Part shown: positions 9,888-15,583 of the stretch, piece by piece
Numbering within the stretch: the stretch's first letter is position 1
Layout: each line of letters opens with the position of its first letter
From: Flavimobilis soli
GTDB taxonomy: Bacteria > Actinomycetota > Actinomycetes > Actinomycetales > Cellulomonadaceae
DNA length: 64,000 bases
Assembly: GCF_002564025.1 (NCBI RefSeq)
Contig: NZ_PDJH01000001.1
Coordinates: forward strand, 930,001-994,000
Reading direction: 5' to 3'
The notes under the pieces: model-generated
What the model was told of the DNA's origin: nothing
Databases searched by the model: none
Seen by the model: the letters and a program-made list of their open reading frames with translations, nothing else
Translations under genes and position numbers: made by a program

Positions 9888-11870
9888 TCAGACCTCCGGG
9901 GCCTCCGGGCCGAGCTGCAGGCTCGCACCGGGGATGGCACCGAGCAGCTCCCGGGTGTACTCCTCGCGGGGCGAGTCGAACACCTCGTCCGTCGTGGCGT
10001 GCTCGATGATGCGCCCCTGCTTCATGACGCAGACCTCGTCGGCGATCTGCCGCACGACGGCGAGGTCGTGCGTGATGAACAGGTAGCTCAGGCCGAGCTC
10101 GCTCTGCAGGTCGTTGAGCAGCTCGAGGATCTGCGCCTGGACGAGCACGTCGAGAGCGGAGACGGCCTCGTCGCACACGACGACCTCAGGCTGCAGGGCG
10201 AGCGCACGCGCGATCGCGATGCGCTGGCGCTGACCGCCGGAGAGCTCGTTCGGGAAGCGACGCATCGTCGACTGCGGAAGCGCGACGAGGTCGAGCAGCT
10301 CGCGGACGCGGGCCTCGCGCTCCTTGGCCGTGCCGACCTTGTGGACCCGCAGCGGCTCCTCGATCGTGCGGTAGATCGAGTACATCGGGTCGAGCGAACC
10401 GTAGGGGTTCTGGAAGATCGGCTGCACGCGGCGGCGGAAGGCGAAGAGCTCCTTGCGGCCGAGCGTCGACATGTCGACGCCGTCGAAGATGATCTTGCCC
10501 TCGGTCGGCTCGAGCAGGTTGAGCACCATGTTCGCGACCGTGGACTTGCCCGAGCCGGACTCGCCGACGAGCGCGACCGTGGTCCCGCGCTTGAGCGAGA
10601 ACGACACGTCGTCGACGGCCTTGAAGTCGCGCGCCCCCTTGGCGGCACCACGGATGTGGAACACCTTGGTGAGGTTCTGCGCGATCACGACGTCGTCGCG
10701 CTCCTGGGAGACGCCGTCGCCACCGGTCTGCGCGAGCAGCTCCTTGACCTCGACGCCGGCAGCCTTGGCGCTCTGGATGCGGCGCGACGCGAGCGACGGG
10801 GCCGCCGCGACGAGGCGCTTCGTGTACGCGTGCTGCGGGTTCGCGAGGATCTCGCGGGACGGGCCCGACTCGACCACGCGACCGCGGTACATGACGACGA
10901 GGTGCTCGGCGCGCTCGGCGGCGAGGCCCAGGTCGTGCGTGATGAACAGGACCGCCGTGCCGAGCTCCGAGGTCAGACGACCCAGGTGGTCGAGGATCTT
11001 GCGCTGCACCGTCACGTCGAGCGCCGACGTCGGCTCGTCCGCGATGAGCAGCTTCGGGCGTGCGGCGAGGCCGATCGCGATGAGGGCGCGCTGGCGCATG
11101 CCGCCCGAGAACTCGTGCGGGTACTGCCGGGCGCGACGCTCGGCGTCGGGCAGGCCGGCCTCGGCGAGCAGACCGGCGACGCGGTCCTTGCTCGTCGCGA
11201 CCGACGTGAGGCCCTCGACGGCCGTCGGGGCCGACGGCATGCCGAGGCTCTCGAGCACGACGACGGCCTCGAGGCGCGTCGTCGAACCGGTCACGAGGCG
11301 GGACTCCGCCTCGGCGAGGACGGCGTCACGCTCGGCCTCGGGGCGCGAGGCGAGCTCCTCCTGGAGGAGCGAGATGAGCGTGCGCTTGGCGTCGTGGCTC
11401 AGCAGCAGGTCGCCGCCGGCGAGCTGCGGGGTCTCCCCCTCGGCGAGGCCGAGCGCGAGCTTGCGCTGGGTGCCGCGGGAGACGTCGATGCCGTTCGCGC
11501 GCAGGCCCTCCTTGACCTGGAACCCGATCGACCATACCGGGTTCAGGTTGGACATCGGGTCCTGCGGGACGAGGCCGATCGACCTGCCGCGCAGGGCGAC
11601 GATCTCGCGCTTGGAGGCCTTGGTGACGTCGACGCCGTCGAACATGATCGACCCACCGGTGACCTTGCCGGTGCCGGGGAGCAGGTCGATGATCGCGTGC
11701 GCGGTCGTCGACTTGCCGGAGCCGGACTCGCCCACGATCGCGACCGACTGGCCAGGGTAGATCGTCAGGTCGGCGCTCTTGACGGCGTGGACGGGGCCAC
11801 CGCGCGTCTGGAAGTCGATGCTGAGGTCGCGGATCTCGAGGAGCGGCTTGGCCGCTGTCGTGTCGTTCAT
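9888..11870 (-). CDS. Fused oligopeptide ABC transporter ATPase (OppD-OppF in one chain) with an extra helical insert
   Basis: 660 residues from ATG 11870, overlapping oppC by four bases. Two ABC ATPase halves are present. The first has GESGSGKSTT (residues ~47-56), the Q-loop VPQDPMSNLNPV, SGGMRQRALIAIGLA and LLIADEPTSALD. The second has GESGSGKSTVANMVL, FQNPYGSLDPM, SGGQRQRIAIARAL and VCDEAVSALD. It energises peptide import with the OppBC pair upstream. Residues ~131-228 of the first half form an unusual insert, rich in Ala/Glu/Leu and probably helical, between the Q-loop region and the signature motif. Normal OppD has only about 15-20 residues there. Both nucleotide sites keep their catalytic motifs; the Walker B glutamates are present. 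Confidence 0.93.
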   Translation of the reverse strand: MNDTTAAKPLLEIRDLSIDFQTRGGPVHAVKSADLTIYPGQSVAIVGESGSGKSTTAHAIIDLLPGTGKVTGGSIMFDGVDVTKASKREIVALRGRSIGLVPQDPMSNLNPVWSIGFQVKEGLRANGIDVSRGTQRKLALGLAEGETPQLAGGDLLLSHDAKRTLISLLQEELASRPEAERDAVLAEAESRLVTGSTTRLEAVVVLESLGMPSAPTAVEGLTSVATSKDRVAGLLAEAGLPDAERRARQYPHEFSGGMRQRALIAIGLAARPKLLIADEPTSALDVTVQRKILDHLGRLTSELGTAVLFITHDLGLAAERAEHLVVMYRGRVVESGPSREILANPQHAYTKRLVAAAPSLASRRIQSAKAAGVEVKELLAQTGGDGVSQERDDVVIAQNLTKVFHIRGAAKGARDFKAVDDVSFSLKRGTTVALVGESGSGKSTVANMVLNLLEPTEGKIIFDGVDMSTLGRKELFAFRRRVQPIFQNPYGSLDPMYSIYRTIEEPLRVHKVGTAKEREARVRELLDLVALPQSTMRRFPNELSGGQRQRIAIARALALQPEVVVCDEAVSALDVLVQAQILELLNDLQSELGLSYLFITHDLAVVRQIADEVCVMKQGRIIEHATTDEVFDSPREEYTRELLGAIPGASLQLGPEAPEV

Positions 11871-12823
11871 CGCTTGCGCGCCTTCGGGTCGAGGGCGTCG
11901 CGCACGACGTCGCCCATCATGATGAAGCTCAGGACCGTGAGAGCCAGCGCGGCCGACGGGTAGAACAGGATCATCGGCTGCGTGCGCAGCGAGACCTGAG
12001 CCTTGGAGATCTCAGCGCCCCAGGACAGCACCGAGCCCGGGAGGCCGAGGCCGAGGAAGGACAGCGTGGCCTCGGCGACGATGAACGTGCCGAGCGAGAC
12101 GGTCGCGACGACGACGACGGGGGCGAGCGCGTTCGGCACGACGTGGCGGACCAGCGTCATCCACCTCGACACCCCGAGCGACTTCGCGGCGGTGATGAAG
12201 TCGTTGTTCTTCACGCTCATGACGGCACCGCGCGTGATGCGGGCGACCTGTGGCCACCCGAACACGGCCAGCACCGCGATGACGCGCCAGACGCCACCAC
12301 CGGTGAAGACCTGGCCGACGACGATCGCGGCCAGCACGAGCGGGATCGCGAAGAAGATGTCCGTGAGGCGGGCGAGCAGCGAGTCGAGCCAGCCGCCGTA
12401 GAAGCCGGCGAGGGCGCCGACGATGCCGCCGAGGAGGACGACCGCGATGGTCGTGACGATGCCGACCGTGACGGAGGCACGCGCGCCGAAGATGACGCGG
12501 GCGTAGACGTCGCAGCCCTGGCGGTCGAAGCCGAACGGGTGACCGGGCTCGGGGTTGGCGAGCGACTTCGACAGGACGCAGTACGTCGGGTCGTTCTTGG
12601 TGAAGATGCCCGGGAGGAAGGCGACGACGGCCACGAGCAGGATCAGGAAGGCCGAGACCCAGAAGAGCGGACGACGACGGAGGTCGTTCCAGGCGTCGCG
12701 CCACAGGCTCGACGGCGCCTCGGTCTCGTCGACCTTGTCGACGACCGCGAGGGGGGTCAGCGCGGCGTCAGCGACGAAGTGGCCCTGACCCGGACGCGGA
12801 GAGATGGTGTTCTGCTCAGGCAT
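11867..12823 (-). CDS. Oligopeptide/dipeptide ABC transporter permease, OppC type
   Basis: 318 residues from ATG 12823. The N-terminal cytosolic stretch WRDAWNDLRRRPLFWVSAFL and first membrane segment are typical of OppC/DppC, and the periplasmic loop carries HPFGFDRQGCDVYARVIFGA (family HWLGTDDLGRDV..). The binding-protein-dependent transport domain follows, with GWPQVARITRGAVMSVKNNDFITAA and the EAA-loop region LGVSRWMTLVRHVVPNALAP. About six membrane segments are seen. It pairs with the upstream OppB and overlaps it by eight bases. Confidence 0.94.
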   Translation of the reverse strand: MPEQNTISPRPGQGHFVADAALTPLAVVDKVDETEAPSSLWRDAWNDLRRRPLFWVSAFLILLVAVVAFLPGIFTKNDPTYCVLSKSLANPEPGHPFGFDRQGCDVYARVIFGARASVTVGIVTTIAVVLLGGIVGALAGFYGGWLDSLLARLTDIFFAIPLVLAAIVVGQVFTGGGVWRVIAVLAVFGWPQVARITRGAVMSVKNNDFITAAKSLGVSRWMTLVRHVVPNALAPVVVVATVSLGTFIVAEATLSFLGLGLPGSVLSWGAEISKAQVSLRTQPMILFYPSAALALTVLSFIMMGDVVRDALDPKARKR

Positions 12824-13742
12824 ATCGGATCCTCGGGTCCAGGACCGCGTACAGCAGGTCCACGATCAGGTTGCCCACGATGTAGACGATCACGAGGATC
12901 GTCACGAAGCTGACGACGGTGGACGGGTCGCCCTTGATGATGGCGGCGTAGAGCGTGCCACCCACGCCGTGGATGTTGAAGATGCTCTCCGTCACGATCG
13001 CACCGCCCATGAGCGCGCCGAGGTCCGCGCCGAGGTAGGTCACCACGGGGATCAGGGAGTTGCGCAGGACGTGGACGTTGACGACGCGGCCGCGGGACAG
13101 ACCCTTGGCGGTCGCGGTGCGGACGTGGTCCGCGGTGAGGTTCTCGGCGACCGACGTGCGCGTCAGGCGCAGCACGTAGGCGAAGGACACGGCGCCGAGC
13201 ACGATCGCAGGCATCAGCAGCGCCTTGACCGAGTGGTCCGCGCCGACCGTGGCGGGCAGGAGCTGCCACTGCACACCGACGAAGAACTGGAGCAGGAAGC
13301 CGATGACGAACGTCGGCGCAGCGATCACGACGAGGCTGACGACGAGGAGCGTGCCGTCGAAGAACTTGCCCTTGCGCAGACCGGCGTAGAGACCGAACAG
13401 CACGCCGAAGACCGTCTCGATCACGAGCGCCATGAGCGCCAGCTTGAGCGTCACGGGGTACGCGCTGGCGATGACCTCCATGACGGGCTGACCGGAGAAG
13501 GACTTGCCGAAGTCCAGCGTGAAGATGCCCTTGAGGAAGAGCAGGTACTGCACGATGAACGGCTGGTCGAGGTTGTACTGCGCCCTGATCTGGTCGGCGA
13601 CGGCGGGAGAAAGACCGCGGTCACCACCCATCGCGGCGACGGGGTCGCCGGGCATCGCGAAGACCATCGCGTAGATGAGCAGCGTCGCGCCCAGGAACAC
13701 AGGGATGAGCTGCAGCAGTCTTCGTCCGAGATATCGGACCAT
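12816..13742 (-). CDS. Oligopeptide/dipeptide ABC transporter permease, OppB type
   Basis: 308 residues from ATG 13742, chosen because GGAAGGAAAG lies just upstream and MVRYLGRRLLQLIPVFLGAT is the usual OppB beginning; the frame stays open 57 bases further upstream without family similarity. Six membrane segments are visible. The periplasmic loop has FAMPGDPVAAMGG, and the EAA region reads VRTATAKGLSRGRVVNVHVLR. It forms the translocation pore with OppC. It lies downstream of the oppA gene after a 221-bp gap that holds two hairpins, so it may be expressed at a lower level than oppA. Confidence 0.93.
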   Translation of the reverse strand: MVRYLGRRLLQLIPVFLGATLLIYAMVFAMPGDPVAAMGGDRGLSPAVADQIRAQYNLDQPFIVQYLLFLKGIFTLDFGKSFSGQPVMEVIASAYPVTLKLALMALVIETVFGVLFGLYAGLRKGKFFDGTLLVVSLVVIAAPTFVIGFLLQFFVGVQWQLLPATVGADHSVKALLMPAIVLGAVSFAYVLRLTRTSVAENLTADHVRTATAKGLSRGRVVNVHVLRNSLIPVVTYLGADLGALMGGAIVTESIFNIHGVGGTLYAAIIKGDPSTVVSFVTILVIVYIVGNLIVDLLYAVLDPRIRYA

Positions 13743-13865
13743 CGGTCTTTCCTTCCACACTTGCCGTGTCGCGCCGTCGGATCGACCTAGATCCGCCACA
13801 CGACTCTAGTAGACGCACGAACCTCGAGTCGTCGACGCGTGAGTGCGCGCGTCGGGGCACGACGG

Positions 13866-13943
13866 TGGGGTGAGGGACTCGGTCCCCCACCCCACGTCGT
13901 CATGCCAAGGTCGGTCGGGCCGGCATGCCGGCCCGACCGACCT
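13866..13943 (-). terminator. Two strong hairpins between oppA and oppB
   Basis: The hairpin at 13908-13943 is a 36-base perfect palindrome (aggtcggtcgggccggca and its complement, no spare loop). Next to it, 13866-13894 folds as a 13-bp stem with one mismatch and a TCG loop. They follow the oppA stop on the minus strand. In peptide-importer operons such structures often protect the binding-protein mRNA or attenuate read-through, leaving the binding protein in excess; that role is inferred here. The rest of the gap, 13743-13865, shows nothing else. Confidence 0.65.
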
Positions 13944-13963
13944 GAGATGTCACCGGAGGGTGA

Positions 13964-15583
13964 TCACCACGTGCTGATGGCGTCAGCCTGAGCCCACAGC
14001 TCCTTGGCCTTCTCCGGGTTGTAGTCGAGAACCTCGGAGCCCTTGAGCGAGTCGTTCCAGCCCGCGATGACCGGGGACGTGAAGTCCTTGGCCGGGGTGC
14101 GGGTGCCCTGGAAGATCGCGTCGGTGATCGCCGTGCGGTCGATCGCCATGGAGATCGCCTGGCGGCGGAGGATGCCCTCCTCGCCCGAGAAGTGCTCAAG
14201 CTTCTCGGGGATGGTGAAGGACTGGAACACGGCCGAGGCCTGGTTCACGGAACGACCGTTGAGGTCGGTCTCGAACGTCGCGAACGCGCTGTCCGGGACG
14301 GCGTCGAGGACGTCGAGGTTGTTCGCGAGGAGGTCCGTGTAGGCGGTGTCCTGCGACGTGTAGAACACGAAGCGGATGCCCTTGTTGGCCGCGGTGCGCG
14401 GGCCGTCGTAGTCGGGGTTGGGCACGAGGTCGATCGACGTGTCGTGCTTCCAGCTGCCCTCCTTGACGATGTACGGGCCGTTGGCGATCGGGGCCTGGCC
14501 GTAGGCCTCCATGTCCTCGAACGCGACGGACGGCAGCGGCATGAACGCCGTGTAGCCCAGGCGCAGCGGGAAGTCAGCCTCAGGCTGCGCCAGCTTCACC
14601 GTGAAGGTGTGGTCGTCGACGATGTCGAGCGCGAGCTCGGAGTCCTCGTCGTACGAGAAGCCCTCGATGGACTCGAAGAAGTAGGAGCTCAGCTGAGCGT
14701 TGCTCAGGAGGGCGCCGTAGTTCCACGCGTCGACGAACGACTTCGCGGTGACCTCTTCGCCGTTCTGGAACTTGTGGCCCGGCTTGATCTTGATCGTCCA
14801 GAGCTGCGAGTCCTCGGACTCGATCGACTCGGCGAGCTCGTTCTGGGGGGAGCCGTCAGCCTTGTAGGACACGAGACCCTGGAAGATCTGGTCCATGATG
14901 CGGCCGCCGCCGGTCTCGTTCGTCATGCCCGGGACGAGCGGGTTCGCCGGCTCGGAGCCGTTGGCGATGACGATGCCGTCGCCGCCGTCCTTCTTGACGG
15001 CCGAGTAGATCGGCTGCGAGTTCCAGCCGAACTCGACGTCCGAGACGTTCTCGGAGTAGCCACCCGTGACGTTGGAGTACCACAGCGGGATGACGGGCAG
15101 GTCGGTGAAGAGCTGCTCCTGCGCCTGGTCGAAGAAGCCGTTGGCCTCCTCGACGGAGCCCGCGGTGAGGCCCTGGCGAAGCAGGTTGTCGAAGTTCTCG
15201 TTCGAGTAGTCGCCGTCGTTCGAGCCGGCGCCCGTGCCGTAGAGCGGGCCGAGGAAGTTGTACAGCGACGGGTAGTCCGCCTGCCATCCGGTGCGGAACG
15301 CGCCGGTCATCTTCCGGTCCTGGACGTCCTGGCGCAGCTCGGCGAACGTCGCGTACGGCTGGCCCTCGGCCTGGATGCCGAGGGTGTTCTTGATCGAGTT
15401 GGCGACCGCGTCGACCCAAGCCTGGTGGCCACCGTCGCCGTTGTAGGCGATGGTGAACTTGTTGCTCGAGGTGCTGGCCGGGGCCGAGCTGCTGGTGTCG
15501 TTGCTCTCACCGCTGCACGCGGTCAGGGCGAGCGCACCGATGGCCGTCAGGGCCACCGCGGCGTGCATCCGCTTGTTCTTCAA
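13964..15583 (-). CDS. Oligopeptide-binding lipoprotein of the SBP_bac_5 family, apparently circularly permuted
   Basis: 539 residues from TTG 15583, chosen because AGGAGG stands four bases upstream and gives MKNKRM then a lipoprotein signal with lipobox LTAC (Cys23). After a Ser/Thr linker, residues 43-198 (FTIAYNGDGGHQAWVDAVAN to WNSQPIYSAVKK) are what is normally the C-terminal third of such proteins. Only then comes the normal N-terminal part (ANPLVPGMTNETGGG.., residue 199 on), running through the usual middle (RRQAISMAIDRTAI, TPAKDFTSPV) to LWAQADAISTW and the stop, exactly where the FTIAYN strand should follow. The order is thus C-part then N-part in one open frame. It should be the external receptor of the opp importer downstream. 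The family is certain; the permutation rests on my recall of family order. Confidence 0.9.
   Translation of the reverse strand: MKNKRMHAAVALTAIGALALTACSGESNDTSSSAPASTSSNKFTIAYNGDGGHQAWVDAVANSIKNTLGIQAEGQPYATFAELRQDVQDRKMTGAFRTGWQADYPSLYNFLGPLYGTGAGSNDGDYSNENFDNLLRQGLTAGSVEEANGFFDQAQEQLFTDLPVIPLWYSNVTGGYSENVSDVEFGWNSQPIYSAVKKDGGDGIVIANGSEPANPLVPGMTNETGGGRIMDQIFQGLVSYKADGSPQNELAESIESEDSQLWTIKIKPGHKFQNGEEVTAKSFVDAWNYGALLSNAQLSSYFFESIEGFSYDEDSELALDIVDDHTFTVKLAQPEADFPLRLGYTAFMPLPSVAFEDMEAYGQAPIANGPYIVKEGSWKHDTSIDLVPNPDYDGPRTAANKGIRFVFYTSQDTAYTDLLANNLDVLDAVPDSAFATFETDLNGRSVNQASAVFQSFTIPEKLEHFSGEEGILRRQAISMAIDRTAITDAIFQGTRTPAKDFTSPVIAGWNDSLKGSEVLDYNPEKAKELWAQADAISTW

Follow-up and report, generated by a model that had tools for sequence, protein, structure and literature searches.

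Circular permutation of an OppA/DppA-type lipoprotein in actinobacterial opp operons, with evidence from trees for its repeated origin

An oppA/dppA-type lipoprotein gene of Flavimobilis soli encodes a mature domain in which the two canonical parts have changed places behind an intact signal peptide. The gene is located in the window, that is, the whole stretch of 64,000 nucleotides that was analysed. We consider it probable (roughly 84%) that its product is a working lipid-anchored peptide receptor of an OppABC-DF importer with a circularly permuted mature domain, and that this arrangement was re-made several times.

The gene (13964..15583, minus strand, as are all features of the operon given below) encodes 539 residues and runs, with its frame open throughout, from a TTG start at 15581-15583, preceded by GAGGAGGA, to a TGA stop at 13964-13966. 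Residues 1-23 (15515..15583) read as a signal peptide with a lipobox (LTAC, Cys23), of which Leu20 and Cys23 are invariant across the permuted proteins of the A2 alignment (n=27); judged by these features, the window protein is a secreted lipoprotein with a lipobox cysteine. A Ser/Thr-rich linker of 19 residues follows (residues 24-42; 15458..15514), delimited by the sequence and a structure model in which residues up to 37 have low confidence. Segment B (residues 43-198; 14990..15457) represents the canonical C-terminal part and segment C (residues 199-539; 13967..14989) the canonical N-terminal part. According to the sequence and its homologues, the new join lies at 14975..14989, where the old C-terminus (..AVKK) meets the old mature N-terminus (DGGDG-IVIANG). 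Segment C ends in ..AISTW; canonical proteins reach FTIAYN from there through a loop that typically counts 3 residues.

The sequence-only reading had proposed that the mature part is circularly permuted with the signal kept. This is borne out by profile, homologue and solved-structure alignments, and the segment boundaries given there were correct. Aligned separately with the SBP_bac_5 profile (length 368), residues 43-198 match positions 292-367 and residues 199-539 match positions 2-276. Likewise, the whole 539-residue protein matches in two stretches of reversed order and gives no single collinear match. The window protein scores 202.1 bits against this profile (Pfam gathering threshold 32.4), and SBP_bac_5 is the sole Pfam family matched at E values up to 1. 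Since the segment order is reversed (B then C), we call the protein a permuted offshoot rather than a standard SBP_bac_5 member, the order in the profile being the usual one in the family and not a formal requirement. Membership of the Type Ic / Cluster Bc group (TpMglB-2-like) was considered and rejected, no Type I sugar-binding homology being found among the Pfam matches with E up to 1. The scores against the NCBIfam equivalogs NF011684 and NF043070 (OppA or DppA) are 98.9 bits (cut-off 947) and 62.1 bits (cut-off 1005), below both cut-offs, as are those of the canonical relative P0090 (96.4 and 56.4 bits), so that these models assign no exact class of peptide substrate to the window protein.

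Canonical relatives are built in the order signal-C-B, as exemplified by P0090 with one collinear SBP_bac_5 match (2-366). In the canonical proteins P0186 and P0190, about 55-60 unmatched residues separate two matches to segment C, probably an insertion inside this segment. The closest solved protein, DppA of Mycobacterium tuberculosis (Rv3666c; PDB 6E3D, 7JLS, 8WD9; cluster C), shares about half of the residues of segment C, is collinear with the window protein within B and within C, and has the same ligand-site Asp, but has the canonical order. Of its 517 chain positions, 9-357 correspond to C and 361-514 to B, so that the canonical partner has, where the new ends of the window protein lie, a loop of 3 residues (positions 358-360 of the 8WD9 chain). 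The typical form of this canonical link is ISPW-[SDET]G[TSE]-FTIAYN, and a few links are longer; the window protein stops at the W of the link, and its segment B begins just upstream of FTIAYN.

By gene content and profiles, the operon further comprises an oppB-type permease gene (12816..13799), an oppC-type permease gene (11867..12823) and a gene encoding a fused oppDF-type ATPase with two ABC_tran stretches (9888..11870). In the window, the permuted gene stands where oppA belongs in oppABC-DF, and this holds for 12 of the 13 permuted loci tested and for genome G1205 (locus L222). The exception, locus L199 of genome G463, carries a divergent permuted oppA and no close oppB, oppC or full oppDF within 17 kb. 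Between oppA and oppB of the window lies a long palindrome (13896-13950, minus strand) whose transcript folds at −40.3 kcal/mol versus −19.1 for shuffled sequences (z −6.6). No T run was seen at this palindrome, which may determine how much receptor mRNA is present relative to permease mRNA. A promoter and terminator scan returned no promoter and two terminator-like sites on the plus strand, with 1.2 expected by chance. At locus L198 of genome G039, seven tandem canonical oppA-type copies are situated directly upstream of oppB-oppC-oppDF, the last copy being cut by the locus end; arrays of this kind could feed rearrangements.

The permuted order, described in the sequence-only reading from this one gene, is present in many independent genomes and named assemblies. 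It was found for 26 of 120 proteins in the first protein search list, the other 94 being canonical, and for 38 of the 239 proteins classified in all three protein searches (8 of 247 were unclassifiable). Homologues with the same order as the window protein occur in Sanguibacter hominis (92% identity) and Sanguibacter suarezii (83%), and other named permuted sources include Sanguibacter antarcticus, Microbacterium suaedae, M. halotolerans and M. halophytorum. The named records are annotated as ordinary ABC-transporter or oligopeptide substrate-binding proteins, an annotation that conceals the permuted order. The genome searches, followed by a check of the segment order, yielded 38 genomes with the permuted gene, S. 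suarezii being an additional one: four in family f1 (the source genome, G005, G024 and G020; G005 is the S. hominis locus, judged by coordinates), 27 in family f3, all from its genus g43, four in f19 (G103, G666, G725, G614), two in f20 (G275, G171) and one in f45 (G1205). The permuted gene was detected in 5/59 relatives, 11/396 genomes from the order, 27/213 of family f3, 4/398 of family f19 and 3/394 from the class, rates that were read from match ranges, depend on the chosen E-value limits and come from overlapping genome draws. The permuted oppA shows apparent frameshifts at 3 of the 27 g43 loci (L117/L137 in G181, L136 in G422, L148 in G440), reflecting either decay or sequencing errors. 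In two proteins, P0164 and P0165, the signal and segment B are near-identical to those of P0158 while C resembles other g43-type proteins; they are either real mosaics or chimeric metagenome contigs.

Trees were built after B and C of all sequences had been joined in one common order. They place the permuted state in five to six separate lineages and thereby indicate, at the level of sequence, that the swap arose repeatedly and not once, a recurrence that is absent from the sequence-only reading. Five changes of order are needed in the 115-row oppA tree. The same number is needed in a careful tree of 91 rows (24 of the 115, long-branched or redundant, were removed by hand), in which one change suffices in 0% of 200 bootstrap trees and the support-starred branches alone force only 3 changes. 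A single clade of all 25 permuted rows costs 165.9 log units and is rejected (p-AU 2.9e-11), as is the union of Sanguibacter-type and Microbacterium-type proteins in one clade (p-AU 2.1e-5). The permuted Microbacterium proteins are sisters of the canonical P0090 (100/98). With more lineages included (117 rows), 6 changes are needed, at least 4 of which are forced. Trees of the separate segments, for which 32 of the 117 rows were removed by hand on the same grounds, require 8 changes for B and 6 for C. Moreover, a tree of OppB, OppC and OppDF from 33 loci needs 6 changes, at least 5 of them forced, and one change is enough in 0% of its bootstrap trees. Among canonical sequences, the g43 lineage is closest to G046 in the oppA trees and to Corynebacterium marambiense in the operon tree, and its exact placement is therefore unsure. 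Canonical forms are also present in the genus of the window itself (G002, G003); as these genes and operons fall in a distant clade, they show no recent change within that genus.

Close pairs of canonical and permuted genes are found in two genera. Within genus g248, the permuted order is that of the one-contig genome G1205, and the other fetched loci are canonical (9/9). G1205 is 71% identical to its closest canonical congener in B and 68% in C (congener range 54-71 and 55-68%), compared with 60% in both segments to the best other permuted protein; given the overlap of the congener range in C with this 60%, the signal rests on the closest congeners. In the operon tree, G1205 is nested among canonical congeners (100/96). 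Within genus g161, G614 is permuted with the cut in a different loop: the front part of B begins AFRTGW, and at the rear end the initial third of B runs as far as RTEVND and is followed by a short tail. Its congener G691 is canonical and is its sister in the 117-row tree. The alternative cut of G614 is known from one 50-contig genome only.

Some features of the permuted proteins are what a single origin would produce too and count against recurrence: the same short loop is cut in five of six lineages, at the identical residue in the Sanguibacter type and f20, and the short DG-type joins are similar among lineages (for instance TK-ADG-S/T-x-V). They would fit one ancient permutation that reached resident opp operons by horizontal transfer and had both its segments overwritten later through gene conversion with local canonical genes, in which case the several origins seen in the trees would be apparent only. 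In some alignment windows, the permuted Microbacterium proteins are indeed equally close to permuted Sanguibacter and canonical Microbacteriaceae proteins (0.68 and 0.68 in the last C window; 0.66-0.74 and 0.67-0.75 in C windows 200-240), but in the others they are on average closer to canonical Microbacteriaceae than to permuted Sanguibacter. Furthermore, B alone (p 4.3e-4) and C alone (p 3.3e-5) each reject a single permuted clade, the four nearest rows to each of the six permuted lineages are all canonical in both segment trees, and the operon tree scatters the permuted loci too. G614, whose nearest row is its canonical congener, is cut elsewhere, and the C-terminal end residues differ among most lineages (Sanguibacter-type and f20 proteins stop at ..W, those of Microbacterium at ..WE, those of g43 at ..F or ..Y and that of G1205 at ..WNG, while that of G614 carries a tail after ..RTEVND). 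Taken with these observations, transfer followed by conversion seems unlikely. The tandem array of seven oppA copies in the relative G039 might bring to mind an assembly artefact, the refuting case named in the sequence-only reading, with a chimeric order produced when tandem or repeated oppA genes were collapsed. This is scarcely credible, however, in view of a source genome that consists of a single contig with one permuted copy (its only two other matches have 28 and 22% identity), of the identical order found in named assemblies made independently and in dozens of genomes and proteins, and of the purifying selection on the gene.

This selection is read from dN/dS values of 0.21-0.30 for the three pairs among the window, S. 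hominis and S. suarezii, by which the permuted gene is under purifying selection; the value for the window versus G024, 0.54, is less clear than those within Sanguibacter. Together with the G463 locus, 1 of 13, that has no oppB, oppC or oppDF neighbours and with the frameshifts in three g43 loci, the latter value might suggest that the protein is made but has lost its transport function or changed its role. We regard such a loss or change as very unlikely, because the gene lies in the operon and has no other close oppA beside it in the source genome, because dN/dS is low within Sanguibacter, and because Arg97 and Asp103 are retained in 35/35 permuted rows. Asp103 corresponds, as worked out from alignments, to the ligand-site Asp of M. 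tuberculosis DppA (D445). We thus continue to favour a working receptor that was permuted repeatedly, which would fold into the usual two-lobed shape and bind peptides like canonical DppA. An AF2 model based on 76 alignment rows (mean depth 39 rows in B and 75 in C) has a pLDDT of 85.0 and a pTM of 0.82, and in blocks of ten residues around the new join the pLDDT is 91-93; a first model with 27 rows was weaker (70.8 and 0.71). In comparisons of the model with solved structures, sequential structure aligners covered segment C only. Canonical binding proteins enclose the ligand by bringing their two lobes together, and they dock on the permease; the scoop of E. coli DppB contacts both lobes of DppA (PMC12136057). 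Joining the old ends and cutting the loop should leave lobe closure and permease docking intact. Going by the domain limits of OppA, the cut would lie in lobe II, in which case the lipid tether would shift from lobe I to lobe II.

In the window protein, a short linker connects the old C-terminus with the old mature N-terminus and the chain is cut in a short loop, with signal and lipobox still in front and the gene in its normal oppA slot. Since the signal cannot be displaced from the front, duplication plus a new start codon would be insufficient here. Either a signal-B-C-B form would have arisen by duplication and been trimmed, or B would have moved forward; G614 would fit a signal-B-C-B form trimmed at a different place. 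Recurrence would follow if a short loop and the old termini next to it can be re-cut and few cut sites are tolerated; the small number of such sites would also best explain why five of six lineages share one loop. A tandem duplication whose outer parts were lost, as put forward in the sequence-only reading, may have been the route; its intermediates were not found among the long relatives examined or in the flanks. A tandem query of 1039 residues returned 90 proteins. Four of the 90 were permuted proteins of the ordinary kind. Of those that matched B and C, none had B-C-B or C-B-C-B order, and the odd ones had a broken frame, an extension or an insert. A search for remnants of B or C in 600 bases upstream and 400 downstream of eight permuted genes gave matches at chance level only (best E 0.067). 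Routes to a permutation given in PMC3320104 are duplication, fission-fusion and cut-and-paste.

Natural circular permutations are usually viewed as ancient one-off events of which the individual steps can no longer be traced. Permutations are documented, along with partly duplicated intermediates, in an unrelated family, the DNA methyltransferases (PMC3320104, whose reference list includes Jeltsch 1999 and Bujnicki 2002). These are cytoplasmic enzymes that have no export signal at the front to preserve. Among open-licence literature, as far as titles and the beginnings of abstracts tell, no report of circular permutation in the SBP_bac_5 family was found, and the sole natural permuted ABC-importer binding protein found there in print is TpMglB-2 (Tp0684) of Treponema pallidum. 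In the available text of PMC4990184, this lipid-anchored protein, termed 'Type Ic / Cluster Bc', keeps ligand binding and conformational change, and a related Gram-positive clade is described. It differs from the present family in having a sugar-binding Type I fold with the permuted strands in the N lobe, and its permuted part is poorly conserved in sequence and, in the opinion of its authors, possibly derived from another gene; a repeated origin, unlike here, is not described in that text.

One gene at one operon position is thus permuted in several lineages, with both forms within single genera (G1205, G614 and their congeners). Such pairs are close enough to study by what steps a permutation comes about, whether its intermediates are functional and how selection acts afterwards, and the permuted receptors bear on the docking of binding protein and permease when the membrane tether moves. 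If the repeated origin is true, the gene would be a natural replicate experiment on the origin and retention of permutations.
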